From NCBI GenBank assembly GCA_015485035.1, contig WFUI01000096.1, positions 1 through 19,312 on the forward strand: DNA of 19,312 nucleotides, in the 5' to 3' direction. The first letter of the stretch is position 1, and every line of letters begins with the position of its first letter. A program made the position numbers and the translations under genes. The DNA comes from Mariprofundus sp. GTDB taxonomy: Bacteria; Pseudomonadota; Zetaproteobacteria; Mariprofundales; Mariprofundaceae. The notes under the pieces are model-generated. The model saw nothing but the letters and a program-made list of their open reading frames with translations, was not told the DNA's origin and searched no databases. Below are positions 1 to 16,020 of this stretch, one piece after another.

Positions 1-2077
1 GCATGGACAACCGCGACCATGCTGTTTGCAACACATCACGTACGGGTATTTTGCCGCTGCTGCCAAGGCACGGTTCAAGCGCCTGTCGGATAAATATAAT
101 GCGCGCCTGCGCATCCTTGCTCAGGCATTTGAACAGATCGTCATCCACAATCACAGACCAGACCGGTCTGTCATTGCCCTCCAGCAGCACATGTAAATCG
201 TAGGCTTCCAGACCGCAGAACGGTGCACGCAATAACGCCGCCCACGATTCCCGATCTGCCGGATGCAACAGGGCGCGCAACAGGGCGCGTAATAAACGCA
301 CTTCCGGCCTGCTGTTTAATGGCAGGATTTTGACAGCGCGAAAGGCAATACCAGCGGCATTCAGGGCCGGCATAATGGCCTGCAAATGTTTACGCGAACG
401 CGCCAGAATGCCGATGCGCCGGGAGCTCCCGGACAACGCTTCACGAACCAGATCAACCACGTAATCCGCCTCCAGCGCAGCATCCTTGCCCGTTTGAAGG
501 TGCAGGTTTACCGAACCGGTATGTGAGAGAGCAGCCACAGCGGGCGCATAGGCTACCGCACCGGAAATCACATCCTGCCGATCCGGGAAAATTGACCGGA
601 ATGCCGCATTGACCCAATCCACAATGGCAGGAGAAGAACGGAAATTGCGTTCCAGCTGCAATGCTTCCACCGGAGGCAAACCCGCCTCATTGCTGGCTGC
701 ATTGAGAAACAAACCGACTTCCGCCTTGCGGAAGCGGTAAATCGACTGCATCGGGTCACCGACCATAAACAGGCTGCGATGGATGCCGTCACCGCCCTGC
801 CAGCCATCGGTAAGGCATTGCAATAAACGCATTTGCAACAGCGATGTATCCTGAAATTCATCAACGAGAATATGGCGAATGCGGTAATCGAGCTTCATTA
901 GCAGATCGCCCGGTGCAGCATCATTCGCACCCAGGGCATCCATAGCACGCAGTGAAATCTCGGTAAAATCGGCTTCTCCCTGCTGAGCAACACACTGTTG
1001 CAGATGCTTATTGGCCAGCACGAGCAGCACAAACAGTGATTCCAATACGTCCCATTGCTGATCATCCATGCGCGGACTGGCAGGCAATCCGCGCAGTTCA
1101 TGCAAGGCTCCGGCCAGTTCCGGAGTCATCGCCAGCAAATCGAGCAGATGTTTGAACTGATCTTTGGGAACCGTAAAATCTTTACCGGCAGGAAAACCAA
1201 GCCGAACCGTGACGCCGCCGGGTTTACGAAAATCAGCTTTATTCCCCACCAGCAGAAAATCGGCGATGATCTGCCAGGATTCCAGCATTTCCAGATCAGC
1301 ATCCGGCCATTCAAATGATTGCAGCACGTCATCCTGCTTCTGCTCGCCGGCAAAGCGCATCAGGGCGGGCAATGCTTCCCTCACCTGCATCGGCATCAGC
1401 GCATCGCAATCCATCAAGGTCTGCATCATGATGTCAGCCAGATTGGATTCCAGCATCTGGCGCAAGCCCGTCAGATCACGGCCATGCTCGGCAATATCGC
1501 TTAGCCATTGCTCGCGTTTGGACAACATATCAGCCAATAAACCAATCACGGCCACCGCATTGTGATCCTGATGCAGCAACATCCCCTCCGCCGCATCGGA
1601 AAAATCGCGCATGGCTTCATCCAGCGCTGCTTCCGCCGCCTCGCGATACAGGGCCTGCGCATGTTCGGACGGACCTGGCATCATTCCCATGCCGGACAGC
1701 AAAGGCAATTGGCGGGCCAATGAAAACGTCAGGCTATCCAGTGTCATAATCCGCAAACGGCCTGAATGATGTTCTAAATGCCACCCCTTTTCGGCAGAGC
1801 GTTGCATGGCCTGTTGCGCCAGCGTCCACGTTTCCATTTTATGCGTTTCGCCTGCATCCGGTTGCGGCGCAGTAAGCGATTCCAGCACCCGCCGGCGCAT
1901 TTCAGCCGCGGCCTTGCGTGTAAACGTGAGCGCCAGAATTTCTTCCGGCTCATCCACAATGGCCAAAAGAGACAGAATACGCTGGGTGAGCAATTCCGTT
2001 TTACCGGAACCGGCCGGTGCCTGCACGAGAAACGAACCAGCCGGATGACGCGCTCTTTTGCGAACCTCAGCACTCAT
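1..2077 (-). CDS. AddA-like UvrD/Rep-family DNA helicase, 3'-truncated by window edge
   Basis: Superfamily 1 helicase subunit of a RecBCD/AddAB-type double-strand-break repair enzyme, expected to be an ATP-driven translocase acting with the AddB-like partner just upstream. The first 692 codons are present and the C-terminus lies outside the window, so I cannot say whether a C-terminal nuclease domain exists. Motifs seen: Walker A APAGSGKTELL at residues 20-30, motif Ia LALTFTRKAAAEM at about 48-60, Walker B VDEFQDTS with Asp406 and Glu407, motif III VGDPMQSIYRFR at about 437, and then LERNFRSSP. The ATG start at 2075-2077 overlaps the TGA of the upstream addB-like gene as ATGA, and an AGGA ribosome site lies 9 bases ahead of it. 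UvrD itself or RecB are alternatives, but the pairing with an AddB-like Fe-S nuclease favours an AddA-like role. Confidence 0.88.
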   Translation of the reverse strand, partial: MSAEVRKRARHPAGSFLVQAPAGSGKTELLTQRILSLLAIVDEPEEILALTFTRKAAAEMRRRVLESLTAPQPDAGETHKMETWTLAQQAMQRSAEKGWHLEHHSGRLRIMTLDSLTFSLARQLPLLSGMGMMPGPSEHAQALYREAAEAALDEAMRDFSDAAEGMLLHQDHNAVAVIGLLADMLSKREQWLSDIAEHGRDLTGLRQMLESNLADIMMQTLMDCDALMPMQVREALPALMRFAGEQKQDDVLQSFEWPDADLEMLESWQIIADFLLVGNKADFRKPGGVTVRLGFPAGKDFTVPKDQFKHLLDLLAMTPELAGALHELRGLPASPRMDDQQWDVLESLFVLLVLANKHLQQCVAQQGEADFTEISLRAMDALGANDAAPGDLLMKLDYRIRHILVDEFQDTSLLQMRLLQCLTDGWQGGDGIHRSLFMVGDPMQSIYRFRKAEVGLFLNAASNEAGLPPVEALQLERNFRSSPAIVDWVNAAFRSIFPDRQDVISGAVAYAPAVAALSHTGSVNLHLQTGKDAALEADYVVDLVREALSGSSRRIGILARSRKHLQAIMPALNAAGIAFRAVKILPLNSRPEVRLLRALLRALLHPADRESWAALLRAPFCGLEAYDLHVLLEGNDRPVWSVIVDDDLFKCLSKDAQARIIFIRQALEPCLGSSGKIPVRDVLQTAWSRLSM

Positions 2078-4773
2078 GAATCATCGTCCTGTTCACAGTT
2101 CATATTCATTTCTTCAATCCGGCAGACCGCTTCCAGGCCGCAATATTGGCAGGCGTATTCATCGCGTGGAGACACATCGCAACGCCCCTCAACAAACTCC
2201 GTCGCCAGCGCATTGATTGATGCTTTCCAGTCGTCCAATACCGCCTGCCAGTCATCCGGCCTGCCCCGCTTGCCGTCGCACGCAGCAATGCCATCAATGC
2301 CGATGTCCTCGCCGCATAAGCCTTCATAAGCCATATCGCCACTGCGTACCCGTGCAAACGCCACAGCATCATCCACACCAAGATCCGCCGCCAGCGCATA
2401 TTGGGGCAGCTGTGGTTCTTCAATACGTTCGTTTTCTTCGTTAACAATCCATTTGGCGGTGGATTGTTTGGCGCCGGTTTTATAATCAATCAATATCTTG
2501 CGACCCGTCCCATCGACATCCATACGATCGGCTTTAATTTTGACGGTGAACTGTTGATCGGTCTTTTCCGGCAAATACATCAGATATTCCTGCTCTATCG
2601 CCGTCACCCTGAAATCGGGGCGCTGTAATTCCAGCTCCAGCCATGCCGGCAACACGCGCTGCATACGTTTTTTCTCATAATCCCGTGTCCGGCTATCCAC
2701 CGCTACCCGGGCATTGGCCCATGCATGTTCAATCGCCGCATCAATCAGGGCTTTCGTTTCATCTTCGGTGAGCGCTTCCAATGCGGCACGCCGTCCCAGT
2801 TTTCGCCAGATATATTCCAGCGCCAGATGAATCAATGAACCCTTGCTTGTGGCCTCGATACCCGGCGCTGTTTCTCCAAGCGCCGTAATACCGAGCCGGT
2901 GCGTTGCAAAAGCCCTGAACGGGCAGGCCGACTGGTTGCGAATAATGGCTGTGCCGCCATGTACGGTTTGACCTGCCGGTAAGGGTACTTCGGACATCTC
3001 ATCCATGTTCTCCATCGCCAGCGATGTTGCGTCTGTTTCCATTGCAACACATGCCTGAATCGCTACATCCGCAACAAAGGATGAGGGCAATACGTCCTTT
3101 TCATCGTGTTGCCTGGCATACGATATTTCCACACAAGGCGCAGCATGCAGCAACGATGCCCACAGCCGTTGCGAAGCATCATAAGCCAGCGCCCCGCTGC
3201 TCATCGGCAGCGCATACTGTTTCTGCACGCTGGCAGGCAACAAGGGATAAGGACGCACCGGTGGAGGGAAGGCTTCTTCATCCAGCCCCATGACAAACAC
3301 ATGATCGAATCGGAGTCCGGATACCTGTGCCAGCGGCAACACGACCACATTGGCATATCTGGCCGTCTCCGTCAGACCGACTTCCGAACAGCCCGTGCGT
3401 AGCAAGGATAAGAATTTAGCCCACGACAGCGTTTCGCCCATCGCATCCACGGCCACCAGAGAAATCAACACATCACGAAATGCATTCATCTGCCGAATCT
3501 CATGATTGCTGCGCTGCATTTCCTGATCACTTCCAAGCTGTACAAAGCCGGTCACCTTGAGCAACTCATGCACGGCTTTCACCCAGTCATTGGCCGGGCG
3601 CTTTTTCGTATTCCATGCCGCCAGGGCTTTCAGCACTGATAATAATTCCGGCAGTTCCTTTACATCTCTGGCATTTAACAGGCTTTTGAATGTCATGCGG
3701 TGACGGTTATTTTTCCGCAATATCGCATCGAGTCTGGCGCGTTCAAAACGCTCATCGTCAAAACCCGTCAACCATGGTGAAAACAACAGCGGCGAAACAT
3801 CATCGAACGACAGCGAAAACTCGCCCGCCAGACTCAGCACATGCAGCAATTGCGCGATCATCGGCGAATCGGTCAAACGCTCCCCATTCATGGCCACTGC
3901 CTGCATCGTGCAGGATGGATCGCTGCGTAATTCCGGCATCAGCGCATCATTCAACGCCCGTTTCAATCGGGACAGATCCTTCACGGAATCAGACGTCACA
4001 ATGGCAATGCGTGCTGCAGGCTTTTCTGCCAGCACTGCTTTAACACGCGCGGCAATATGATTGCATTCCGCCTGCACATCATCACAGGGACACAGCGTTG
4101 TAACAGCAGGTCTGGTTTCCTCCTGCACCTGCGCCAGATGAACACCGTCCTCCTGTAAAGCCGACAATAAGGCTTGCTGCATCGGGGTTATCACATCGAA
4201 CCCGGCCAGCAGAATGGATTCCGGTTTCTCGATATCATCCATGCATTGAAGCAATCGTTGTCCGACATCAGCAGCCAGCATCCGGCCTGATAACGCGCCA
4301 TCTTCCAGTTGCTTATGCATGGCTTGCATCCAGCGCAACAACGCATCTGCCTCTTCCCCGCCAAACATCAATGCATCTTGATCTATGCAGTATTCCTGCA
4401 TGATGACGTATGCATCGCGCGCATGCCCCGCCAAACCGCGCAGCGAAGCAGCTGGCTGTTCTGTTCCACCGGATGATCTTAACTGTTCTGTCCGCAGATC
4501 CGCCCGAATAACCCGTTCCCACAGCCAGCTTTCCTGCACCCGGTTCAGAGCCACCGGCATCAACACCTGTTCAGCCGCCATATCACCCATCCATGCATGC
4601 CAGCTCAATACATTTGGCGTTGCACACACCGATGATTCCGAATCGACAACCAGACGCCGCTTCCAGTCGATAGCCAGCCGGGAAGAAGACGTCAGCAAAA
4701 GCGCTCCCTGTTTCAGGCAATCAGCAACGGAAGCGGTGGTAATGACGGGTAGATTCAGGTCTTTATCATTCAC
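2074..4773 (-). CDS. AddB-like PD-(D/E)XK nuclease with Fe-S cluster, probable DNA repair protein
   Basis: An 899-residue protein of the ~900-residue 'probable DNA repair protein' type related to AddB, presumed partner of the helicase encoded next. The C-terminal part carries the RecB-family nuclease signature: GSLIHLALE with His649, KADRMDVD with Asp749, and ILIDYKTG with Asp763 and Lys765. Four cysteines are placed as in the AddB iron-sulfur staple: Cys617 (SACPFRAF) before the nuclease core and Cys875, Cys878 and Cys884 (CQYCGLEAVC) after it. The N-terminus has no Walker A motif, so this subunit is probably not an active ATPase. The GTG start at 4771-4773 overlaps the upstream TGA as GTGA, with no strong ribosome site, which suggests translational coupling. 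The nuclease assignment is seen directly; the AddAB-like pathway is inferred from pairing and family. Confidence 0.87.
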   Translation of the reverse strand: MNDKDLNLPVITTASVADCLKQGALLLTSSSRLAIDWKRRLVVDSESSVCATPNVLSWHAWMGDMAAEQVLMPVALNRVQESWLWERVIRADLRTEQLRSSGGTEQPAASLRGLAGHARDAYVIMQEYCIDQDALMFGGEEADALLRWMQAMHKQLEDGALSGRMLAADVGQRLLQCMDDIEKPESILLAGFDVITPMQQALLSALQEDGVHLAQVQEETRPAVTTLCPCDDVQAECNHIAARVKAVLAEKPAARIAIVTSDSVKDLSRLKRALNDALMPELRSDPSCTMQAVAMNGERLTDSPMIAQLLHVLSLAGEFSLSFDDVSPLLFSPWLTGFDDERFERARLDAILRKNNRHRMTFKSLLNARDVKELPELLSVLKALAAWNTKKRPANDWVKAVHELLKVTGFVQLGSDQEMQRSNHEIRQMNAFRDVLISLVAVDAMGETLSWAKFLSLLRTGCSEVGLTETARYANVVVLPLAQVSGLRFDHVFVMGLDEEAFPPPVRPYPLLPASVQKQYALPMSSGALAYDASQRLWASLLHAAPCVEISYARQHDEKDVLPSSFVADVAIQACVAMETDATSLAMENMDEMSEVPLPAGQTVHGGTAIIRNQSACPFRAFATHRLGITALGETAPGIEATSKGSLIHLALEYIWRKLGRRAALEALTEDETKALIDAAIEHAWANARVAVDSRTRDYEKKRMQRVLPAWLELELQRPDFRVTAIEQEYLMYLPEKTDQQFTVKIKADRMDVDGTGRKILIDYKTGAKQSTAKWIVNEENERIEEPQLPQYALAADLGVDDAVAFARVRSGDMAYEGLCGEDIGIDGIAACDGKRGRPDDWQAVLDDWKASINALATEFVEGRCDVSPRDEYACQYCGLEAVCRIEEMNMNCEQDDDS

Positions 4774-5138
4774 TTATCAGTGGTTCGGGGTAACGGCATT
4801 TTTGATTCGGGTTTTGATATCCAGTGGCCGGGCACAAGCTCACCCGATTCATTCATGTGGGAAGGTACATATTGATGCACCCCTACATCACCCTTTTGTT
4901 CCAGTTGCATGAATACGGTCACAGCACTGGCCAAACTAACCACCACAACCAGTGCATAAAACCAGGTCGGTGCGCGTTCCTTATCCACCGGTGTAATATC
5001 AATGACTTCCGGTTCCTGAGCCTTCTCGCGCCTGTTCTTTGCCTTTACGAGCAGCAGCAAGGTCAGATTACGCAACATGAACAGCAATAATGCAGGACCG
5101 AAGAAAAAAAACAGCGATACAAACAGACTTCGAATCAT
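4770..5138 (-). CDS. Small membrane protein, DUF6111-like
   Basis: A 122-residue protein of unknown function with two hydrophobic segments, roughly residues 4-32 and 58-78, separated by a charged loop rich in Lys, Arg and Glu. The C-terminal tail contains YVPSHMNESGELVPGHW, which from memory resembles the end of the DUF6111 family of small proteobacterial membrane proteins; that match is not verified. The ATG at 5136-5138 overlaps the TGA of the DUF1841 gene as ATGA, and its own TGA overlaps the GTG of the AddB-like gene, so it is locked between them. An AAGGAG ribosome site lies about 11 bases ahead of the start. No function can be given; co-transcription with repair genes does not prove a repair role. 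Confidence 0.75.
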   Translation of the reverse strand: MIRSLFVSLFFFFGPALLLFMLRNLTLLLLVKAKNRREKAQEPEVIDITPVDKERAPTWFYALVVVVSLASAVTVFMQLEQKGDVGVHQYVPSHMNESGELVPGHWISKPESKMPLPRTTDK

Positions 5139-5584
5139 AATTCGGACAGCTCCTTCATTCTTCTTGCATAGGCTTCTACATCCGGCTCACGACCGGCACG
5201 CTGGGCGTAGTAGACAGTCTCGGCCAGCACCTCGAGTATCTTGTGCAATGCATCATGGCGATCCATCTTTTTAATGGAAACCATATGATCCAGCGCTCGC
5301 GCCATCTCCGGCGGGTGTTTGGTTGCAACCTGCTCTTCCAGCGCCAGATGCAGGGAGAGGTGCAGATATGGATTCATGCCATCATCGACTGCAAAATCGC
5401 GGTCGAGAAAATCTTCCATATCATCAAAGAAATGATGGTATTCCGGATGCATGGCAATTACACGCGCAATTCTTACTTCCAGCGCATTAAGCGGAAGATC
5501 GGCCTGTGCCTTATGCCATGCATCCCAGAAAACCTGGCGATGTGCCCTCAACTGTTCCCTGCTTGGCCCGCTTGCTTCGCTCAT
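5135..5584 (-). CDS. DUF1841 family protein
   Basis: A 149-residue soluble protein without signal peptide or membrane segment. The central block FFDDMEDFLDRDF, followed by NPYLHLSLHLALEEQV and a KHPPEM stretch, is characteristic of DUF1841, a family of unknown function found in proteobacteria. The length is typical for the family. The ATG at 5582-5584 is preceded by a GGAG ribosome site at good spacing. It is the first gene of a run of four overlapping genes leading into the AddB/AddA-like pair, and a 202-base gap with a hairpin separates it from the cluster to its right, so transcription probably starts in that gap. Many His and acidic residues could suit metal binding, but this is not shown. 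Confidence 0.87.
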   Translation of the reverse strand: MSEASGPSREQLRAHRQVFWDAWHKAQADLPLNALEVRIARVIAMHPEYHHFFDDMEDFLDRDFAVDDGMNPYLHLSLHLALEEQVATKHPPEMARALDHMVSIKKMDRHDALHKILEVLAETVYYAQRAGREPDVEAYARRMKELSEL

Positions 5585-5719
5585 GTGTTACTCCATCGGT
5601 TTATGCAGCGAAACTGTAACAGGATCATGGCAAGGTTGTATCAACGGTTTTCAACTGTGCCTTGCGCTCATTCGTCTCCTGCTGCCTGCGTCGACATTTA
5701 TTCCGGTTCCGGCATGCAA
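5585..5719 (-). promoter_or_regulatory. Leader/promoter region of the DUF1841-addBA operon (weak promoter call)
   Basis: Gene-free stretch ahead of the DUF1841 start. Read on the minus strand it contains TTGAAA and TTGATA boxes around 5630-5652, followed by weak candidate -10 elements (CATGAT, TGTTAC). None matches the sigma-70 consensus well. The region lies between a probable terminator and the first gene of a tightly coupled operon, so a promoter is expected here by position more than by motif. Confidence 0.3.
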
Positions 5720-5753
5720 AATGCCTGCCCCGCATCGTTGCAGGACAGGCATT
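5720..5753 (-). terminator. Probable hairpin terminator after the lipid-type operon
   Basis: Perfect 8-base inverted repeat AATGCCTG (5720-5727) and CAGGCATT (5746-5753), extended inward by imperfect C/G pairing. On the minus strand it lies about 33 bases past the stop codon of the 208-residue membrane protein and is followed by a short run of four T (CATTTTGC). The stem is good but the T tract is short, so termination strength is uncertain. Confidence 0.5.
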
Positions 5754-5786
5754 CAGCAGTCAAAATAACTGTTTTTTTATCAGTGA

Positions 5787-6413
5787 CTACATTTGTTTGG
5801 CCAATAGTGATTCATCATACCATTCACTCATATCATCATACATCTCACCTTTAAGAATATAATACGGTGATTTGTAATAAATCATCACATCATGGAATGG
5901 GTCGGTCAGAATTTTGCAGAACCAGACCAGCCCGGACTGAACGCCCATGATGAAAAACAGGTGAATGGTTCTGAATACCAGCGCCCCAACAGCCAGGGCC
6001 AGCCATACCAATGACAGATTATAGAGAAATCCGCGAGCCTGCTCGGCCGCATCGAATACACCGAACAGTGAGGGCTCAACATATAATGTGGCAGAAGCAA
6101 TGACCCAAAGTGACAACAGAACCAGCTTGCGGGAAAGATTATAACCGACCTTCACACTTTCCTTATAATCATGTGTCGCATCATTAACTTCATCATAGGT
6201 TTTCGGCTCGAAAAAGAAGTGCCCGATCTGACGTAATAACATCGCCACGACCCAGCCGAACAATACCGCCATGACCGGATCCAGAAAAATCCACACATAG
6301 CTGACAATAAAACAGATTGAACTGGCCAGATGCAGAAACTGGTTGATACGATTATGATGATAATAACGGTGGTCATCCCAGCGTTGCATGCGAAGTTCTT
6401 CAATAAAACCCAT
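5787..6413 (-). CDS. His-rich multi-pass membrane protein, possibly Mpo1/DUF962-like
   Basis: A 208-residue membrane protein with about four hydrophobic segments (about 26-44, 47-60, 97-112 and 131-155). The N-terminal part has a cluster of histidines in HRYYHHNRINQFLHL (His15, His19, His20, His28), then GHFFFEP with His65, THDYKE with His81, and a late DPFHD with His174. The HxxxHxxxxN-type start and the membrane-embedded GHFFFEP recall the Mpo1/DUF962 family, whose yeast member is an iron(II) dioxygenase that shortens 2-hydroxy fatty acids; this similarity is from memory and only moderate. A strong AGGGGAG ribosome site sits 7 bases ahead of the ATG. It is the last gene before the hairpin and 92 bases after psd, so it probably belongs to the same operon. 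Function is not established. Confidence 0.7.
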   Translation of the reverse strand: MGFIEELRMQRWDDHRYYHHNRINQFLHLASSICFIVSYVWIFLDPVMAVLFGWVVAMLLRQIGHFFFEPKTYDEVNDATHDYKESVKVGYNLSRKLVLLSLWVIASATLYVEPSLFGVFDAAEQARGFLYNLSLVWLALAVGALVFRTIHLFFIMGVQSGLVWFCKILTDPFHDVMIYYKSPYYILKGEMYDDMSEWYDESLLAKQM

Positions 6414-6465
6414 GATTCATCTCCCCTTCCTGAAAATAATTATGCGAAATGGTGCATGTGTTTTA

Positions 6466-6481
6466 TGACAAGTTTATGTCA
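6466..6481. repeat. Inverted repeat TGACA-N6-TGTCA between psd and the membrane protein gene
   Basis: Perfect 5-base arms, TGACA at 6466-6470 and TGTCA at 6477-6481, in the 92-base gap between the two genes. The half-site word is the same as in the palindrome ahead of the operon (11798-11814), but the arms face the other way. It may be a binding site for the same regulator or a chance match. Confidence 0.3.
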
Positions 6482-6505
6482 ACACAAAGTCACTGCCGAG
6501 ACAGC

Positions 6506-7372
6506 TCAGGATATCAATTCAAGTAAAGGTTCACCCATTTTTATAGCCTGCCCTTCCTGAATATTATCGCAAAAAATATAATGGGATGTGGCAAACAAAA
6601 TAATGGTGGAGCCATGCTGGAAATAGCCCATTTCATCGCCTTTGCTATAGGTAGCATGACAAGGCAGATCATTGGAACCACGACTGCGCAGATCCATATC
6701 TCCCTCCAGACAATGAAACTTCATGCTCGCAACCAATATAGCCGCAACAGGTACCAGCGTTATACTGTGTTCAGGCTTATCCACATCCAGCTGCAAGACT
6801 GCGCGCTCGTTTTTACAATACAGTTTCTCAATACGCTTCAATGCAATCGGATTGACATTCCAGGTATCACCGGAGATATAATTGATACCATGAACCTGAC
6901 AATCCACAGGCGCATGAAAGCGGTGATACATACTCGATTTCAGACGCAGTGTGACGAATACCCCGTCCCGATATTTCTCCTGTAAGGACTGATCCGGAAT
7001 CAAATCCCCCAGTTCATATGGGAATCCCTTGGCCTGAAATACGCTTCCTCCCTTAATTCTGCCATGTGCCCCCACGATCGCATCACACGGACTGACAACA
7101 ACCGATGGCCGCGGATCAATCGGGCGAACACCCGGTTTCAATTCCCGAATAAAACATTCATGCAGACTGATAAATGACTGCTTCCGGGCTTCCGACAAAT
7201 CCAGATCCCTGGCAAAGATACGCCACAGAGCGATAGAGAGTCGTGTTAAAAGAGGATTCTCAATCCGACTGAACCATCCCATCCATTGCGTCAGCCAGCG
7301 GCGTGGAATGCGGTTGGTGAGCAGAAAGTTCAGTTGTTCCTGCTGCGTTAATACGGCAATCAGTTTTGACAT
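6506..7372 (-). CDS. psd: Phosphatidylserine decarboxylase proenzyme
   Basis: Converts phosphatidylserine to phosphatidylethanolamine on the membrane using a pyruvoyl group made by self-cleavage. At 288 residues it has the usual length of the proteobacterial enzyme. The cleavage motif is HGST with the Gly254-Ser255 bond, in place of the common LGST; Ser255 would become the pyruvoyl of the small subunit. The other expected catalytic residues are present: Asp97 in SPCDAIVGAHG and His150/His153 in YHRFHAP. The N-terminal half is amphipathic, fitting peripheral membrane attachment. The ATG lies one base after the TAA of the glycosyltransferase gene and has no purine-rich ribosome site, so translation probably depends on coupling. 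The context suggests it supplies or remodels an amino lipid for this cluster, although it could equally be the cell's housekeeping Psd. Confidence 0.93.
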   Translation of the reverse strand: MSKLIAVLTQQEQLNFLLTNRIPRRWLTQWMGWFSRIENPLLTRLSIALWRIFARDLDLSEARKQSFISLHECFIRELKPGVRPIDPRPSVVVSPCDAIVGAHGRIKGGSVFQAKGFPYELGDLIPDQSLQEKYRDGVFVTLRLKSSMYHRFHAPVDCQVHGINYISGDTWNVNPIALKRIEKLYCKNERAVLQLDVDKPEHSITLVPVAAILVASMKFHCLEGDMDLRSRGSNDLPCHATYSKGDEMGYFQHGSTIILFATSHYIFCDNIQEGQAIKMGEPLLELIS

Positions 7373-7373
7373 G

Positions 7374-10106
7374 TTATACGGGGGAAGAATCCGTATGTGT
7401 CAGCCCCATATCTTGCAAAAACCGCTGCATGATCGGTTCCGCCTGATAGTCATAACTGCGCCGAACAGCATTCTTCTGCATCATGGATCGATGTGCAGCA
7501 TCGCCAAAAAAGCTGGCGACCTGTACGGCCATGGATTCAATATCTTCCACCAGATAACCATTGATTCCATGCTGAATAATATCTTTGGGGCCTTTGCAAT
7601 TGTACGCGATGACCGGCATGCCGTAGGTGAATGCTTCCAACACAACATTACCAAAGGTGTCAAAGCGGGATGGAAACACAAACAGATCAAGACCGGCATA
7701 CAACGATTTCATCCGGGCCTTGTCGACCCAGCCCAGAAACAGCGCATCAGGTAACACTTTTTTCAGTTCCGCTTCGGCAGGCCCCGTTCCGGCAATCACA
7801 ACCCTGACATCAGGCACGGATTGTCGGATACGGGCAACCATCTCTGGAAGGTCAAACAATCCCTTTTCCCGACTCAGTCGACCGGCATACAGTAATACGG
7901 GCAAATCATCGCTTGCACCATCAAACAGCTCGCTTTTGCTGACGGCCTGAACAGCAGGATCTGGCGGCTGCGTGTGGTGCGCTGTCAAAAATACCCTGTC
8001 GTTATCCAGCTGCATCTGGTGTCCGGTCAGCCAGCTCCGGTGCTCATTGTTGAGCACGAATACACCGGTATATTGCTGATAGAAGAAGCGTAGAAAGCGG
8101 CGAATACGATCCCGTTCGTGCTGACTGAGGTCGGTATTATCCTTGATAAAGTCGATCCAGTCCGTATGCATAAAGAAGTATCCGGGCACATTGAACATCG
8201 ACTTGATCAACAAAGAGACCAATGCCATCGGCCCTTCGGTGGAACAGACAATGCGATCATACCCCCCCTCATAGAAGATACGGGCTACTTCCATGAAATC
8301 AGGCAGACGGAACTCCTGCTCACCAAAATCCGCTACGGAAAAACTGGTAAGCGGACGCACCACATGCAAATGCGGCTCTGGTTCGACATCAGCATGGCAA
8401 ATCAGAAAATCAACCGGCAAGTCGGCACGCTGAATTTCCCTGAGTTTCCCGCTTAGCGAACTCGATACGCCGTTTTTATCACGCAGGGTATCGGTCAGAT
8501 ACAAAGCACGCCTGGGGTGTTCGGCACTGCCGATATGTGCAGCAAAATCGTTCAGGAAGCGTCGGTTCTGATACAGCAGACGCGTGCTGGCAAATGTCGT
8601 GCCCAGCAGGATAATGCTGACCAGCACCGGAAAGGACAGACTATCCAGCAGCTTGCCGATATTCAGACCGCTGAACCCCGGCTTGCTGTGACCACCATCG
8701 AACAAACCGGTCAACTGGCTGGGAATCTCGAACTTGCGGGCAATTTCCTCGGTTGAAAAGTTCTCCAGCTTGTTATCCGCATTGATCAATGATGCTTTTT
8801 TTACACGCTTGATCATGAGCAGATTCAGCTCGGTAAACAGCCTGGGGATGGTCTGATTCACCGTTTTGATAAATTCTTCAGGTGATTTGTTTTTACTTGC
8901 ACTGATCTGCTCAAGATATCTGATACAGAAACGGTAATCTTTTTTGGTATTCCATTTGACCAGTTTGCTGAGTTTCCTGCCCTGCAATGCGGCATGAATA
9001 CAATCGTAGAATTTCTGTGTATTCCTGTGCTTCTGCATTTCCAGCAACAGATTACTGATGGCAAAACAGGCCAGTTTATCCGATGTTTCACCGCGATGAA
9101 ACATGATACGTAACAGACCCGGGTCTTCAATATGCGTCGCAACCTGTGAAAAATAATCCAGCAGGGCAATATTCAGTTTCTGATTTTCCGCCACATAGCC
9201 GAAAGGCACAATACGATTGTCACGAATAGCCTCCAGAGCCAGCTCTGATGGCTTGCTGGTTTTAAGCCGTTTGGAAAGATCGGGCACATACAGATACGAA
9301 CCGCACTCACCGGCAAAAATCCCCATATGATCATCCGAACCGCCCGTAAGCACTTTCGGCCGGTCCGGGTCGACGCCGAAATCAGCGGGATCCAAACCAT
9401 GTTTCCCGGCATAGCTGCGGATTTTTTCAGGTGTCAGACTGTTGACCCAGTTGAGCGTCAGCACACTCTGCCACTGGTCCCGCTGCCCGTTCAGAACTTC
9501 AAAGCGTTCAAACAACACAGCCAGTTTTTCAAACAGTTCCAGGTCAATATGTTCATTGCGTGTATAGAAATACATCGGATGCGGCAATATAACCGGGATA
9601 TCGTGCGCTGCGGTATAGCGCAGGAACTGGTAAATATCACCGCGACTACCCTTCAATACAACTTCCTGCTCGGGTGTAAACCCGTAGGTTAAAACATGCA
9701 CAAACAAATCATATTCGGGGAAATGGCAGGTGAACTCGGCGGCAGCCAGAACATCCTGCCCCTTTTCCATCAGCTCCCAGCAGGATCGGGCATTATTATG
9801 ATTGGTCACCGTGATAACATCGCAACCATTGCCCTGCAAACATCGCACCAGATGTTTGGTTTTCAGCCAGGTTTCCGGCAAACCCAGAATGCGCCCCCAT
9901 AACTCATCAGGTACATCACTGTTGAAATCATGGCAGTGCAAATCCATGCGCAGGCAATCTTTCAGCGGAAACCTGTTTGTGGTCTGATCCAGATATTGAT
10001 TGAATTCAAGTTGCAGCGATTTTCGAAATGCGCTTGTCTGGCTACTCACAAAATCGATCACAGGCTGATCACTCCTCGACCGGCTGCTGGTCGACTCGAT
10101 GACCAT
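7374..10106 (-). CDS. PHP-domain phosphoesterase fused to GT4-family glycosyltransferase
   Basis: A 910-residue two-enzyme fusion. Residues ~54-300 form a PHP domain with the metal-binding set HxH (LHCHD, His57/His59), TNHNN, AEF, LPHPMYF and GGSDDHMG. A middle region with a hydrophobic helix near residues 490-509 leads to a GT4 glycosyltransferase: N-domain from ~533 (TDTLRDKNGVS, STEGPMALVS, MHTDWIDF) and C-domain from ~737 (LLYAGRLSREKG, VVIAGTGP). The EX7E motif reads DTFGNVVLE, with Asp816 in place of the first Glu and Glu824 kept. The HTD and NGVS motifs recall lipid-sugar transferases such as the SqdX or PimB type. It overlaps the end of the aminotransferase gene by 38 bases. The ATG at 10104-10106 is preceded directly by an in-frame GTG; neither has a clear ribosome site. 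The sugar donor, acceptor and PHP substrate are unknown. Confidence 0.88.
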   Translation of the reverse strand: MVIESTSSRSRSDQPVIDFVSSQTSAFRKSLQLEFNQYLDQTTNRFPLKDCLRMDLHCHDFNSDVPDELWGRILGLPETWLKTKHLVRCLQGNGCDVITVTNHNNARSCWELMEKGQDVLAAAEFTCHFPEYDLFVHVLTYGFTPEQEVVLKGSRGDIYQFLRYTAAHDIPVILPHPMYFYTRNEHIDLELFEKLAVLFERFEVLNGQRDQWQSVLTLNWVNSLTPEKIRSYAGKHGLDPADFGVDPDRPKVLTGGSDDHMGIFAGECGSYLYVPDLSKRLKTSKPSELALEAIRDNRIVPFGYVAENQKLNIALLDYFSQVATHIEDPGLLRIMFHRGETSDKLACFAISNLLLEMQKHRNTQKFYDCIHAALQGRKLSKLVKWNTKKDYRFCIRYLEQISASKNKSPEEFIKTVNQTIPRLFTELNLLMIKRVKKASLINADNKLENFSTEEIARKFEIPSQLTGLFDGGHSKPGFSGLNIGKLLDSLSFPVLVSIILLGTTFASTRLLYQNRRFLNDFAAHIGSAEHPRRALYLTDTLRDKNGVSSSLSGKLREIQRADLPVDFLICHADVEPEPHLHVVRPLTSFSVADFGEQEFRLPDFMEVARIFYEGGYDRIVCSTEGPMALVSLLIKSMFNVPGYFFMHTDWIDFIKDNTDLSQHERDRIRRFLRFFYQQYTGVFVLNNEHRSWLTGHQMQLDNDRVFLTAHHTQPPDPAVQAVSKSELFDGASDDLPVLLYAGRLSREKGLFDLPEMVARIRQSVPDVRVVIAGTGPAEAELKKVLPDALFLGWVDKARMKSLYAGLDLFVFPSRFDTFGNVVLEAFTYGMPVIAYNCKGPKDIIQHGINGYLVEDIESMAVQVASFFGDAAHRSMMQKNAVRRSYDYQAEPIMQRFLQDMGLTHTDSSPV

Positions 10107-11781
10107 CACGTCGATGCTGTGGTTTCAGCATCGGGAAGCGTGCATACAGCATGTCTTTCAACATCTGTCGTTTAATAGTCTTATTGCTCAGTTCCGGACT
10201 TTGCCACCACCAACCACCCTGCTGCATTTTTTCCGCCGCACTGACAAAACGATTCATTACCTGCAGGTAATCATCATCGTTGAAATTAAGGCTCATGATC
10301 ACCCGGCCTGTACCAATCCAGCTTAAATTGAGCCCTTCAGCCCGCAAGTAGTACTGGTACATCCAGTTGTAACGTGATGGCCGGGTATAAAGAATTGTCC
10401 AGACCGATGATATATTGGCAATACGAAGCGGCAGTTCGGCCTCCCTGAATCGATAATTCAGCTGATAGACCCGCTCATTCCACAAAACGTCGACTTGTTG
10501 ATACATATGCTGATATTCAGGTAATGCGATGCGGTTCAGAAATTCATTCATCGTTGCCATTATATAAGGGTGCGAATTGAATGTGCCGCGCGCAAATGAA
10601 ACCTTCAGTGGCTGTTCATCAGTAAAGCGCTTCATCAAGACATGTTTTCCGCACAACACCCCGACCGGCAATCCACCCCCCAGCGTTTTTCCGTAAGTGA
10701 CCATATCCGCCTGAATATTGAAATATTCCTGAGCGCCCCGATAAGCCAACCGGAAACCGGAGAAAACTTCATCAAATATCAGGACAATCGAACGCCGCGC
10801 GCAAACATCCCGCAGCTGTTTTAGCCAGCCCGTATAAGCAGCCCGATCAAAAGCAGCATGGCGATCGCTGCTGATCAATGCGGTATCACTGGCCGCATTT
10901 GCATTCGGATGCAGTGCCTGCAAAGGGTTAATGAGTACACAGGCAATATCATTGCGGGTTTCCAATACCTTTAGCGTAGCCTCGCTCATATCACTCAGGG
11001 TATACACATCGCTGGTTTTACGTTCATTGCCGATCCCCGGCTGAACGCCGTCCCACCATCCGTGATAAGCCCCGCACAGTCGGACAAGGTGCGTTTTACC
11101 GGTATGATAACGAGCCAGACGTACGGCCTGCATCACCGCCTCTGTGCCGGACATGTGAAAAGATACCTCATCCAGCCCTGAAATATTTTTCAGTTTTTCA
11201 ACATTATCCCGTATGACTGGATGATAAGGACCCAGAACCGGCCCCAGTTTTTTCACCTTTTCCCATGCACTTTCCATGCAATCCTTGTAAAAATCATACC
11301 CGAACACGTTCACGCCATAAGAGCCGCTCAGGTCATAGCTCCAGTTACCATCCAGATCCTTCATCCTGACGCCTTCCGTTTCTTCAACGACCGCACCCAG
11401 CTTCAAATACTTTTGCACATAATTGCGATAAGGAAACGGAACCCGATATGCATTGGTGAAATGCACATCCGAAACAGAGGACTCCAAGGATTCATTGAAC
11501 GCAATGCTTTGGGGTGATTTATCTTTCAGCAAACCGGCCAGCTGATGAAATGCCTCCCGCCGCTGCAAACTTATATTCTCCGGTGAACCATCACTGCTGA
11601 AAAAATGTTGTTCGTTATACTCGAAAAATGGAATTTGGCCGGCAATCCGCCTGGACCACTTGGAATGCCCGGCCAGCGAGCGGTGTTTGGCCCGGGACAG
11701 TCTGAGACGAATCCATATTTTGTAACCCAGTATTAGCGTAAAAACCAAACCAATGATGCCAAAAGCAAAAGGTGCATACAT
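10069..11781 (-). CDS. Membrane-anchored class III PLP aminotransferase (GSA-aminotransferase-like)
   Basis: A 570-residue PLP enzyme related to glutamate-1-semialdehyde 2,1-aminomutase. Seen motifs: SGTEAVMQAVRLAR at 211-224, AYHGWWDG at 238-245, FDEVFSGFR with Asp337, and TYGKTLGGGLPVG with the Schiff-base Lys365. It differs from HemL in having about 130 extra N-terminal residues that begin with a transmembrane helix (residues 3-20, then a basic stretch), which would tether the enzyme to the inner membrane and suggests a lipid or membrane-bound substrate. It is the first gene of the four-gene cluster, with a promoter and palindrome directly upstream, and its end overlaps the PHP-glycosyltransferase gene. 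The C-terminal ~40 residues are basic and specific to this protein. A heme-pathway role is unlikely given the anchor and neighbours; the true amino donor and acceptor are unknown. Confidence 0.88.
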   Translation of the reverse strand: MYAPFAFGIIGLVFTLILGYKIWIRLRLSRAKHRSLAGHSKWSRRIAGQIPFFEYNEQHFFSSDGSPENISLQRREAFHQLAGLLKDKSPQSIAFNESLESSVSDVHFTNAYRVPFPYRNYVQKYLKLGAVVEETEGVRMKDLDGNWSYDLSGSYGVNVFGYDFYKDCMESAWEKVKKLGPVLGPYHPVIRDNVEKLKNISGLDEVSFHMSGTEAVMQAVRLARYHTGKTHLVRLCGAYHGWWDGVQPGIGNERKTSDVYTLSDMSEATLKVLETRNDIACVLINPLQALHPNANAASDTALISSDRHAAFDRAAYTGWLKQLRDVCARRSIVLIFDEVFSGFRLAYRGAQEYFNIQADMVTYGKTLGGGLPVGVLCGKHVLMKRFTDEQPLKVSFARGTFNSHPYIMATMNEFLNRIALPEYQHMYQQVDVLWNERVYQLNYRFREAELPLRIANISSVWTILYTRPSRYNWMYQYYLRAEGLNLSWIGTGRVIMSLNFNDDDYLQVMNRFVSAAEKMQQGGWWWQSPELSNKTIKRQMLKDMLYARFPMLKPQHRRDGHRVDQQPVEE

Positions 11782-11797
11782 ATTGTACCGTCACTTC

Positions 11798-11814
11798 GTG
11801 TCATATTTTGACAC
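11798..11814. promoter_or_regulatory. Palindromic operator candidate GTGTCA-N5-TGACAC
   Basis: Perfect 6-base arms, GTGTCA at 11798-11803 and TGACAC at 11809-11814, lying 17-33 bases ahead of the aminotransferase ATG and covering the predicted transcription start. A further TGACAC at 11832-11837 is a direct copy of the right arm 23 bases away. The position over the start site suits a repressor. No regulator gene is present in the window. Confidence 0.45.
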
Positions 11815-11920: not shown

Positions 11921-12799
11921 TCAATTCTTTTGATTCTGCCCTGATACCGAACAATGGTTATCATCGCAACCTGTCTCCGGCTGCAGGGTTGCATGTTCAA
12001 TATCATACTGCTTCAGTATTTTAAGCAGCGCGGGCAGCAGTTCTGTCCAATGCGCCATCTCATCTATGCCGATATGAGCGGACATTGCCAGCTTGCCTGC
12101 CGGTAATCGCCAGATATGAATATGGTGAATGCCTGTAACGCCTTCTACAGCCTGCATCGCTCCCTCCATTGCACCTGGATCGACGCCCTGTGGTACCGCT
12201 TCCATCAGTTCCAGTGTCGTTTCGCGCACCAGTCGCCAGCCACCCCAGGCCAGTATTCCGGCAACAATAAAGGAAAGGATCGGATCTATCGGCATCCAGC
12301 CGGTTAATAGAATCACGCCACCGGCAACAATGGCGGCAACAGAACCCAGCGCATCCCCCAGCACATGCCAGTAGGCGGCACGTGTATTGATATCATGGCT
12401 GCCGTGCAACCAGCGCATTACGATCAGATTGATGATCAGGCCGAGCGCTGCAATCCATAACACCATACCACCCTGAACGACCGGAGGGTTGGCCAACCGC
12501 CCTGCTGCCTCCCAGACAATCCAGCCGCTGAGAAACCACAGCATTAAACCGTTCACCTGCGCAGCCAGCACCTTGGCGCGACCGTAACCATAGGTCATTT
12601 GCCTGTGAGCAGGCCGCCCGGCAATACGCCCGGCAAACATGGCTAATCCCAGCGCTGCGACATCCGAAACCATGTGGCCTGCATCTGCCAGCAATGCCAG
12701 CGAATTGGCCATCAACCCGCCAACCAGTTCCACCACAGCGAACGCCGCCGTCAACCAGAAGGCGGCGTTCAATGCATGGTGATGATGAACATGGCTCAT
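11921..12799 (-). CDS. czcD: Cation diffusion facilitator, CzcD-type metal/proton antiporter
   Basis: Inner-membrane exporter of Zn2+-like divalent cations from cytoplasm to periplasm. The 292-residue protein has about six membrane helices and the two intramembrane HxxxD metal sites: ADAGHMVSD (His42/Asp46) in TM2 and HVLGDALG (His145/Asp149) in TM5. It also has the family's SLALLADA motif, a His-rich N-terminus (HVHHHH) and a cytoplasmic C-terminal domain containing HHIHIWRL. The chosen ATG at 12797-12799 lies three codons inside an in-frame GTG at 12808; neither has a clear ribosome site. It follows the RND pump gene by about 48 bases, matching the czcCBA-czcD order, and would feed the periplasmic intake of that pump. 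No strong terminator was seen after it. Confidence 0.9.
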   Translation of the reverse strand: MSHVHHHHALNAAFWLTAAFAVVELVGGLMANSLALLADAGHMVSDVAALGLAMFAGRIAGRPAHRQMTYGYGRAKVLAAQVNGLMLWFLSGWIVWEAAGRLANPPVVQGGMVLWIAALGLIINLIVMRWLHGSHDINTRAAYWHVLGDALGSVAAIVAGGVILLTGWMPIDPILSFIVAGILAWGGWRLVRETTLELMEAVPQGVDPGAMEGAMQAVEGVTGIHHIHIWRLPAGKLAMSAHIGIDEMAHWTELLPALLKILKQYDIEHATLQPETGCDDNHCSVSGQNQKN

Positions 12800-12847
12800 G
12801 AATGGCACACTATCAGCATTTACAACGCATAGAGCAAAGAAACAACA

Positions 12848-15800
12848 TCATGATTTATCACGTTCTTCTTTTAATTTATTGCTGCTAAAACGACCAAACA
12901 GGCACGGCAATACAAACAGCGTGAGCAGTGTGGAAGAAACAAGCCCGCCAACAACCACGGTTGCCAATGGTTTTTGAATTTCCGAACCAATCCCTGTCGC
13001 CAGCAGCAGGGGAACCAGGCCCAGTCCTGCAATCATCGCCGTCATCAATACCGGCCTTAAACGACTCTCTGCGCCATTGCATATGGCTTCATTGATATCA
13101 TTGCAATCATCCCAGTGCCGATTAATTGCATCGACCAGCACCACACCGTTCAGCACAGCCACGCCAAACAGGGCAATGAAACCGATACTCGATGGAACAG
13201 ACAAATACTGCCCTGATGCCCATAAAGCCAGAATGCCACCGATCAATGCCATCGGTACATTCAGCATAATCAGTGTGGCCTGACCCACGGAATGGAACAT
13301 GAAATAGAGCAACAGAAAGATCATTAATAATGACAATGGTACCACGATCATCAGCTTGGCCTGTGCCCGTTGCTGATTCTCGAACTGCCCACCGAACACC
13401 ACGGCATAACCCGGCGGCAGTTCGATTTCGTTCTGAATACGCTGATCCAGCTCTGCCACCAGAGAGCCCATATCCCGATCCTCCACATTGCTCTGAATCA
13501 CCACACGGCGCTGAACATCGTCACGCCTGATCATTGGCGGCCCCTGCTCCACATCAATCGATGCCACATCTTCCAGCCGTACCCAGCCGCCGTCAGGTGC
13601 TTGCAGAATCAGGTTGCCAATGGCTTTCGGGTTATCACGAAAACCCCTGGCTAAACGCACATAGATATTATAACGCTCGTTGCCTGAAATCACCTGCCCT
13701 GCAGTAGCTCCACCAATAGCATCCGCCACCAGATTCATCACATCATCCACCGGAATGCCGTAACGATCCAGCTTGCTGCGATCAGGACGAATCACCAACT
13801 GGGCTTCACCCTCAATCTGCTCCATCGCCACATCGCGCGTACCTTCAACCTGTTTGGTCAGTGTTTCGATCTTTTTGCCCATTTCGGCCAGCACTTTCAG
13901 ATCCGGTCCAAACAGTTTGATTGCCAGAGCCGCCTTGACGCCGGATATCAACTCATCAACACGCATGGCAATCGGCTGGGTAAATGCGATCAATAAACCC
14001 GGCACCACTTCCATTTTCTCGCGCATCAGCGTCTGCAGGGCCTGCCTGTCACTGGCGCTTGTCCATTCCGCGACCGGTTTTAAGCCAACAAACAGCTCGA
14101 CATTTGACACCGGTTCCGGATCGCCGCCGATTTCCGCACGCCCTATTCGGGCTGATACATAGGTCACCTCCGGAAATGCATCAATCAACACTTTCTCCAG
14201 CTTTCCTCCCATCTCTTTTGCATAGGATAACGAAGAAGATGGTGCCAGCGTAACACGAATCGCCAGCGTGCCTTCTTCCAGTTCAGGCACAAACTCCGTA
14301 CCCAGAAAAGGGACAATGGCAATGGTTAATACAAAGGCCACGGCTGCTCCACCCACCACGCGCTTACGCGCGTTCAAGGCAGAGCGGAGCAGGCGATGAT
14401 AAGCCCGGGCTATAGGCGCCAGCACAGGGCTCTCTTTGTGAACTACGCCTTTGGTAAAGGCATAGGTCGCCAACACCGGCATTACAAATATTGCCACCAG
14501 CAATGATGCAAACATGGCAAAGCAGATCGACAATGCCATCGGTGTAAACATCTTGCCTTCCACACCTTCCAGCGAGAACAGCGGTGTAAACACCAGCAGG
14601 ATAATAAGAACGGCAAACAGCACCGGCCGCACCACTTCTTTGGAGGCTTCGGTAATACGCAGTGGAATGCCTGCACTGTTTTCCCGGCCATGATTCCCCT
14701 TGGGCATTTTCTCCAGGTGTTTGAAGATATTTTCCACCATCACCACGGAACCATCAACCATCATACCGATGGCAATAGCCAGTCCACCGAGACTCATCAG
14801 ATTGGCCGAAATACCATAATGCTGCATCACCGCCAATGCTGATAATACTGAAATGGGTACGGACAGCAGCACCAGCGTCGCTGCCCGCACATTCATCAAA
14901 AACAGGAACAAAATGATGATAATCAGTACAAATGCTTCGATCAGCGCTTTTTCTACTGTCCACACCGCTTTATTGATCAAGTCGGATTGGTCATAAAACG
15001 GCTGAATCGTGACACCCTTCGGCATGGATTTCTGCACTATCTTCAGGCGGGATTTCACATCATCAATGGTATTTTTTGTATTGGCTCCAAAACGTTTCAG
15101 AACAATGCCAACCACCACTTCATCAAGGTCCTGAACCTGACCGGAAGCGGTGCGCTCCATCATCGTTACTGCGCCCTGACGAATTTCACCGCCAAAAGCC
15201 ACGGTTGCCACATCCCGCACACGAATTGATGTGCCATCAATGGTTTTAACCGGAATGGCCGCAATCGCGGCAAGCCCGTCTTTGCCGCTGGGCACCCAAC
15301 CCACGCCACGAATAACTAACTGTTCATCTCCCTGCGGCAGATACCAGCCACCGGCATTACGGTTGTTGGCTTCAATGGCACTGACCACATCACCCACATG
15401 CAGATTATAGGAAAGCAAACGCTCCGCATTCAGTTGCACCTGATATTGGCGCACCTCACCGCCGTAGGAGAGAATATCCGTCACGCCTTCAACCGGCATC
15501 AGCATCAGTTTGACTACCCAATCGTTCAATGCCCTGAGGGTCATTGCATCAAAACCGGCCGCCGGATCGGACTTGATGATATATTGAAACACCTGGCCAA
15601 GGCCTGATGTGTTCGGTCCGATCTTCGGTATGCCTGCCCAGGCAGGTACCGTTTGGCGGGCATCCTGAAGTTTCTGGAACACCAGCTGTCTGGCAAAATA
15701 GATATCCGTACCTTCTTTGAATACCACGGTAATCACAGATAATCCTGTTTTGGAGATCGAACGTACTTCTTCGACATCAGGCAAGGAATACATCACCGCC

Positions 15801-16009
15801 TCAATCGGGTAGGTGATGAGCTGCTCCACTTCTTCCGAGGCCAGACCCTGCGCTTCGGTATTAATCTGCACCTGCACATTGGTGACATCGGGAAAAGCAT
15901 CCAGATTCAACTTCGGCACGACAAATACCGCATAAGCCATGGAGCCGATCAACAGCATAAGGATCAGTAAACGGTTATTAACCGCCGCATCAATCATTTT
16001 TGTAAGCAT
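12848..16009 (-). CDS. czcA: Heavy-metal efflux RND pump, CzcA/CusA family
   Basis: Proton-driven inner-membrane pump of the HME-RND type, 1053 residues, the energised part of a tripartite complex with the adaptor and outer-membrane proteins encoded upstream. The N-terminal helix, ASEEVEQLITYPIE at 57-70, the periplasmic porter domains and the large hydrophobic blocks are intact. The TM4 motif reads AIAIGMMVDGSVVMVEN at 411-427: Asp419 and Glu426 of the CzcA charge relay are kept, but the first Asp (D402 of CzcA) is Ala413, as in CusA. The methionine cluster of Cu/Ag pumps is missing: the segments read GDPEPVSNVE and RVDELISG, the latter as in CzcA. This favours divalent cations but leaves the metal open. 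The ATG has an AGAGG ribosome site 8 bases ahead; the gap from the adaptor gene is 11 bases. Confidence 0.93.
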   Translation of the reverse strand: MLTKMIDAAVNNRLLILMLLIGSMAYAVFVVPKLNLDAFPDVTNVQVQINTEAQGLASEEVEQLITYPIEAVMYSLPDVEEVRSISKTGLSVITVVFKEGTDIYFARQLVFQKLQDARQTVPAWAGIPKIGPNTSGLGQVFQYIIKSDPAAGFDAMTLRALNDWVVKLMLMPVEGVTDILSYGGEVRQYQVQLNAERLLSYNLHVGDVVSAIEANNRNAGGWYLPQGDEQLVIRGVGWVPSGKDGLAAIAAIPVKTIDGTSIRVRDVATVAFGGEIRQGAVTMMERTASGQVQDLDEVVVGIVLKRFGANTKNTIDDVKSRLKIVQKSMPKGVTIQPFYDQSDLINKAVWTVEKALIEAFVLIIIILFLFLMNVRAATLVLLSVPISVLSALAVMQHYGISANLMSLGGLAIAIGMMVDGSVVMVENIFKHLEKMPKGNHGRENSAGIPLRITEASKEVVRPVLFAVLIILLVFTPLFSLEGVEGKMFTPMALSICFAMFASLLVAIFVMPVLATYAFTKGVVHKESPVLAPIARAYHRLLRSALNARKRVVGGAAVAFVLTIAIVPFLGTEFVPELEEGTLAIRVTLAPSSSLSYAKEMGGKLEKVLIDAFPEVTYVSARIGRAEIGGDPEPVSNVELFVGLKPVAEWTSASDRQALQTLMREKMEVVPGLLIAFTQPIAMRVDELISGVKAALAIKLFGPDLKVLAEMGKKIETLTKQVEGTRDVAMEQIEGEAQLVIRPDRSKLDRYGIPVDDVMNLVADAIGGATAGQVISGNERYNIYVRLARGFRDNPKAIGNLILQAPDGGWVRLEDVASIDVEQGPPMIRRDDVQRRVVIQSNVEDRDMGSLVAELDQRIQNEIELPPGYAVVFGGQFENQQRAQAKLMIVVPLSLLMIFLLLYFMFHSVGQATLIMLNVPMALIGGILALWASGQYLSVPSSIGFIALFGVAVLNGVVLVDAINRHWDDCNDINEAICNGAESRLRPVLMTAMIAGLGLVPLLLATGIGSEIQKPLATVVVGGLVSSTLLTLFVLPCLFGRFSSNKLKEERDKS

Positions 16010-16020
16010 GATCGATACCT

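Follow-up and report, generated by a model that had tools for sequence, protein, structure and literature searches.

Do four adjoining genes of a Mariprofundus genome encode a pathway for a membrane lipid? The genes lie in the window, the whole stretch of 19,312 nucleotides analysed here, which belongs to a 2.25 Mb genome that is 96 percent complete. Its closest named relatives, in a scan for relatives of the second gene product, are Mariprofundus and an uncultured zetaproteobacterium. A sequence-only reading of the window had proposed that an anchored aminotransferase (AT), a fusion of a phosphoesterase to a GT4 glycosyltransferase (PHP-GT4), a phosphatidylserine decarboxylase (Psd) and an Mpo1-like protein together form an undescribed lipid pathway. 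The features of the locus are:

11798–11814, strand not assigned: palindrome GTGTCA-N5-TGACAC, 5′ of the first gene, read by eye; possible operator
10069–11781, minus strand: AT, class III PLP aminotransferase, 570 aa; core gene (PF00202, hydrophobic N-terminus)
7374–10109, minus strand: PHP-GT4; putative PHP-like phosphoesterase (residues ~50–310), linker with one hydrophobic helix (484–513), GT4 (~530–905)
6506–7372, minus strand: second Psd, phosphatidylserine decarboxylase, 288 aa; core gene (PF02666, TIGR00163)
5787–6413, minus strand: putative Mpo1-like membrane protein, 208 aa; core gene (PF06127, borderline)
5719–5754, minus strand: hairpin 3′ of the last gene; probable transcript end

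The described arrangement was confirmed to the base. All four lie on the minus strand; the frames of AT and PHP-GT4 overlap by 41 bases if PHP-GT4 starts at the GTG at 10109, or by 38 if it starts at the ATG at 10106, and gaps of 1 and 92 bases separate PHP-GT4 from Psd and Psd from the Mpo1-like gene. The bounding hairpin has a 16-bp stem (z −7.1) and was equalled in stability by 0 of 200 shuffles. On the other side, the palindrome can be seen by eye, and no sigma-70-like site was found around it; a promoter at this position, also claimed earlier, is therefore not confirmed. Directly upstream of the module on the same strand (11921–18485) lie a CDF cation-efflux gene and three open reading frames that resemble, by eye, an RND-type tripartite efflux system, with no sign of membership in the lipid module. 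On the other flank (2–5584), AddAB-like helicase/nuclease genes (assigned by eye), a 122-aa open reading frame and a DUF1841 gene form a group that recurs jointly in relatives within the genus.

Conservation of the gene set

One scan of genome contigs recovered 55 loci with a PHP-GT4 relative. Linkage among homologues was the proposed test of the pathway, and the set passed it: the order AT, PHP-GT4, Psd, Mpo1-like is kept on one strand in 34 of the 55 loci, counting two (L006 and L025) in which AT runs off the contig. Six more are cut by contig ends, four keeping the last three genes and two the first two, and the other 15 carry PHP-GT4 without the other three. L113, a duplicate of L032, was left out of the 34, and L129 and L130, duplicates of L007 and L003, were left out of the classification. 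The lone copies are mostly distant (41–49 percent identity), with three close ones (L011, L027 and L033, 62–65 percent); surroundings were inspected for 11 of these 15 loci, some of which lie near contig ends.

The three genes other than PHP-GT4 form a tighter core. We searched 398 genomes of the phylum for AT (E ≤ 1e-60), Mpo1-like protein (E ≤ 1e-8) and Psd of the module type (E < 1e-80, far from the 1e-38 of other Psd). Each was found in 24 genomes, and all three are present in 23 of the 25 genomes that have any. The exceptions are G004, without Psd and Mpo1-like protein, and G018, without AT; in both, PHP-GT4 itself is truncated (residues 7–457 and 761–903, respectively), which a contig end would be expected to cause. 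By the hypergeometric distribution, AT and the Mpo1-like protein would overlap this much by chance with a probability of 4.5e-35 when genomes are counted and 2.5e-17 when genera are, figures that ignore shared ancestry. Distances between the module proteins correlate (r 0.70–0.97; 0 of 2000 permutations in each test). The recurrent gene order and the co-occurrence of the trio exclude a chance neighbourhood. Flanking genes were rejected as further members of the four-gene module, since none of their families recurs in the way these four do.

A second architecture and its distribution

At 18 loci, including one on a Sphingomonas parapaucimobilis plasmid, AT is encoded on one strand and Psd and the Mpo1-like protein on the other, without PHP-GT4. 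AT, Psd and the Mpo1-like protein are thus a core kept together in two architectures. The conserved four-gene set proposed earlier stands in its linkage and its membrane-lipid theme and is to be amended in its membership, PHP-GT4 being one glycosyltransferase partner of the trio.

The recurring neighbours of the second architecture are phospholipid-type genes, which bears out the membrane-lipid theme. A PmtA-like methyltransferase gene lies within 300 bases of the trio in 15 of the 18 loci; the one such protein scanned, from L094, matches the PmtA model NF045882 best (156 bits), yet falls below its cut-off of 390. The three loci without this gene (L095, L122 and L123) each have a GT4, and two of them a UDP-glucose dehydrogenase gene (UGD). 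UGD is found near 2 of the 18 second-architecture loci and 4 of the 34 four-gene loci. LplT is encoded, above the curated cut-off, in L122 and L123, and a lysophospholipase-L2-like hydrolase, below cut-off, in L126 and L127. A free GT4 (>400 bits to one of two seeds) occurs within 1 kb in 13 of the 18 loci. L126, L127, L128 and L164 have no GT4 matching either seed within 3 kb of the trio, and L125 has only a 78-bit match, so glycosylation is not a fixed part of the system.

These counts bear on whether PHP-GT4 belongs to the module at all. It could instead be a separate glycolipid or glycoside synthase that happens to share an operon with the trio, which would still allow the trio to be a lipid module. 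Both the 15 lone PHP-GT4 loci and the PHP-free trio of the second clade speak for this. We nevertheless judge it unlikely: the AT and PHP-GT4 frames typically overlap in the four-gene clade (median 43 bases), their protein distances correlate with r 0.90, the PHP-GT4 genomes among the 398 (8 at E ≤ 1e-50) all carry the trio or part of it, and the other clade mostly has another GT4 adjoining the trio.

The AT tree separates the two architectures with 100/100 support (18 versus 35 rows; L041, the same record as L058, was omitted, and alignments exclude proteins covering <85 percent of the query). In this tree the window sequence joins two Zetaproteobacteria, inside a clade of eight in which Cycloclasticus and further Gammaproteobacteria are also found (100/99); a Rhodospirillales genome is paired with Nevskia (100/100). 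Within the genus the distribution is patchy. Module genes occur in 5 of 23 genomes and the neighbouring DUF1841 gene in 22; the module adjoins DUF1841 in only two of these 22, G000 and G018, as seen in flanks of about 1.5 kb, and in G014 and G022 the two are on different contigs. With moderate confidence, we take the four genes to be a single module, spread by lateral transfer, whose product is a modified membrane lipid.

Protein families and active sites

AT is a class III aminotransferase. It matches Aminotran_3 (PF00202) at 108.7 bits, against a gathering cut-off of 30.5, and its PLP lysine, K365, is present in at least 97 percent of 54 alignment rows and invariant in a set of 26. A hydrophobic N-terminal segment is found in the window protein and, among the 54 rows, in 42 under a strict threshold and 52 under a lax one, in agreement with the membrane anchor proposed earlier. 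Assignment as GSAM (hemL) was rejected: the TIGR00713 score of 160.6 bits is far under the equivalog cut-off of 527.3. Another class III gene of the genome, at C2:6802-7776, is GSAM-like as judged by length.

Mycosubtilin-type aminotransferases aminate a beta-ketoacyl thioester that is bound to a carrier protein. Among solved structures, the closest relative of AT is the AMT domain of mycosubtilin synthase (178.6 bits, or 229.9 by profile), with which residues 116 to 529 align. This domain is described as a beta-keto aminotransferase acting on a beta-keto acyl chain (PMC3870968), so the amine may be placed on the acyl chain rather than the head group. The kinship points to amination of an oxo-lipid. 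Against it stands a tree, with branches of about three changes per site, in which AT is no nearer to two domains of long open frames, presumed to be NRPS, than to GSAM-like proteins; a GTFN-type motif occurs in only one of these two domains.

Psd matches PS_Dcarbxylase (PF02666) at 188.3 bits and TIGR00163 at 152.9 bits, above the cut-off of 111.75. Residues D97, H153 and S255 of the GST site, the Asp-His-GST set that we take to be the active site, are conserved in at least 97 percent of the 57 aligned rows. The genome has a second psd, which the sequence-only reading had suggested looking for; it adjoins a pss-like gene at C61, and the module copy is thereby ruled out as the housekeeping enzyme. 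A clear second Psd is encoded in 22 of the 23 carrier genomes; in G046 the second match is a 22-bit fragment.

Could the set make an exported amine or glycoside instead of a membrane lipid? AT resembles natural-product aminotransferases, its nearest solved relative being an NRPS/PKS domain, and the Psd family includes enzymes, such as PsiD, that decarboxylate free amino acids. The next-best AT homologues outside the family sit in open frames of 2719 aa (G098) and 4456 aa (G077), presumed from their length to be NRPS/PKS. Viewing the neighbourhoods, we noticed no NRPS, PKS or carrier-protein genes in the module or as recurring neighbours; the neighbours that do recur are phospholipid-type, and the module Psd passes the equivalog cut-off for phosphatidylserine decarboxylase. 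A small-molecule pathway is, in our estimate, highly improbable.

PHP-GT4 had been described as a GT4 fused to a metal phosphoesterase. The GT4 half is firm, with a Glycos_transf_1 match of 106.1 bits and a GT-B fold. In the PHP-like half, Pfam PHP matched none of 23 members, even with E values up to 1, and NCBIfam matches are weak (best E 7e-4), to CehA/McbA, TrlF and RNase RNM, presumably all families of the PHP superfamily. H58, H60, H104, E125, H177, D259 and H261 are invariant in 23 rows, and we take them to be the PHP metal-ligand motif set. These residues are modelled with high confidence; the structure-match lists are filled by the GT domain. The phosphoesterase part of the claim finds support in the conserved ligand motifs and not in Pfam, and we call the domain PHP-like on the basis of sub-threshold similarity.

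Several PHP-GT4 relatives lie in other settings. In a Fibrobacteres MAG (L045, 7640–10000) and a gammaproteobacterial MAG (L047, 273–2660), the PHP-GT4 relative is preceded by a protein of some 790 aa that looks similar by eye in the two; the L047 version of this preceding protein has no Pfam or NCBIfam match. Six Desulfotignum loci (L043, L044, L046, L050, L054 and L056) have PHP-GT4, with no AT or Mpo1-like gene seen; within a few kb there is a distant Psd in the opposite orientation, and that of L043 scores 81.7 bits with TIGR00163, under the cut-off. At L055 (10616–12956), a GT4 relative without PHP adjoins a Metallophos/LpxH-like gene, an arrangement suggesting that this type of GT can also be paired with another kind of phosphoesterase.

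The Mpo1-like assignment, too, is tentative and built on sub-threshold similarity. The protein scores 23.3 bits with PF06127, whose gathering cut-off is 24 (25.4 bits on the genome stretch), and the five further members scanned are all below 24 (19.5–22.7 in 4 of 4 others). An hhalign comparison built on 15 Mpo1-like proteins gave 88 percent (E 2.7e-6), against only 8 percent with a single sequence and at most 3.1 percent in 30 column-shuffled controls. H15, H19, H28, H65 and E69 are invariant in 23 rows, and H20 nearly so. No relative of solved structure was found. A second Mpo1-like copy with 48 percent identity lies away from the module in one genome (L155, G334:C1:3845544-3846140).

Proposed function

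Most of the partners are familiar lipid enzymes, the core has stayed together as a unit, and its Psd is an extra copy; a special membrane-lipid module is therefore the best account of the set. The analysis shows that the genes are linked, that they co-occur and that their active sites are intact. The link to membrane lipids is well supported; what the product is, in what order the steps run and which reaction each protein catalyses beyond its family, we infer as follows. The extra Psd would decarboxylate phosphatidylserine, or a lipid headed by serine, and so yield an ethanolamine-type head group; the PmtA-like enzyme of the second clade may methylate that group. The membrane-held AT would aminate an oxo group of the lipid in the manner of its mycosubtilin-type relatives; a 3-oxoacyl chain or an aldehyde is the likeliest target. 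Yeast Mpo1 is a 2-hydroxy fatty acid dioxygenase that uses Fe2+; by analogy, the Mpo1-like protein may oxidise or shorten an acyl chain with Fe2+. GT4 would add a sugar from a nucleotide sugar, possibly UDP-glucuronate, a donor suggested only by the UGD genes near a minority of loci. The PHP-like domain might remove a phosphate before or after glycosylation, as a fused counterpart of PlcP-Agt. A glycosylated aminophospholipid, the product proposed earlier, is one hypothesis.

A rival account invokes ordinary remodelling: Psd, with or without the PmtA-like enzyme, would top up phosphatidylethanolamine (PE) or methylated PE, PHP-GT4 would make simple glycolipids from diacylglycerol as PlcP-Agt does under phosphate stress, and AT would supply an ordinary precursor. 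Pairing of PlcP with a glycosyltransferase is established: PlcP is a phosphoesterase coupled to a lipid glycosyltransferase, Agt, which makes MGDG and GADG (PMC4796936). The phosphoesterase gene beside the L055 GT4 and the occasional UGD genes fit this scheme. Upstream of AT, however, no Pho box was found; the window holds three loose matches to the consensus against 2.04 expected, which is chance level, and one of them falls in the gap between Psd and the Mpo1-like gene. A phosphate-starvation operon is weakened accordingly. Moreover, all 18 PHP-free loci encode the Mpo1-like protein, and synthesis of ordinary PE, PC or glycolipids leaves a membrane-anchored, mycosubtilin-type AT unexplained. 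We regard ordinary remodelling as decidedly unlikely.

The favoured module can be put in a more specific form, which we offer as a possibility on the doubtful side: the trio would make an undescribed class of membrane lipid, in which the anchored AT aminates an acyl chain of a glycerophospholipid, the product is next glycosylated (by PHP-GT4 or a free GT4) or N-methylated (by the PmtA-like enzyme) according to lineage, and the genes travel between bacterial classes as a compact module. Literature searches, as far as their listings show, turned up no description of this gene set, in keeping with the earlier remark that no characterised pathway containing it is known.

If a special membrane-lipid module is correct, Alpha-, Gamma- and Zetaproteobacteria have an overlooked gene set for a membrane lipid to which no enzymes have yet been assigned. 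Many unrelated bacteria keep the set in addition to their normal lipid genes, and it may make a lipid of undescribed structure and purpose. Lipids that are aminated or zwitterionic can affect surface charge, how metals and peptides are tolerated, and the lipid biomarkers of sediments. The module is found in marine genera with cultured members (Colwellia, Paraglaciecola and Marinobacter), and with a small gene set and clear active-site residues the question is directly testable.

Comparison with known systems

Four known systems resemble parts of the module. Like PlcP-Agt, it would couple a phosphoesterase to a lipid-type glycosyltransferase. None of the four window genes encodes a calcineurin-type phosphoesterase (Metallophos), however; the putative phosphoesterase is PHP-like and fused to the GT; AT, Psd and the Mpo1-like protein are added, and no Pho box was found upstream of AT. 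In the case of yeast Mpo1, the resemblance runs through the bacterial Mpo1-like family, with which the module protein shares an H-x-N ... H ... GHFFFE core; it differs in being about twice as long as the short bacterial Mpo1-like proteins compared, with an unlike second half and a borderline Pfam score. AT and the MycA AMT domain have VTYGK and GTFNxHP-type motifs in common in the alignment, but AT is stand-alone and membrane-anchored, and no carrier protein or ketosynthase was noticed nearby. The module Psd agrees with bacterial Psd (TIGR00163) in its active-site residues and in passing the curated cut-off, and differs in being additional to the housekeeping copy and tied to the AT and Mpo1-like genes.
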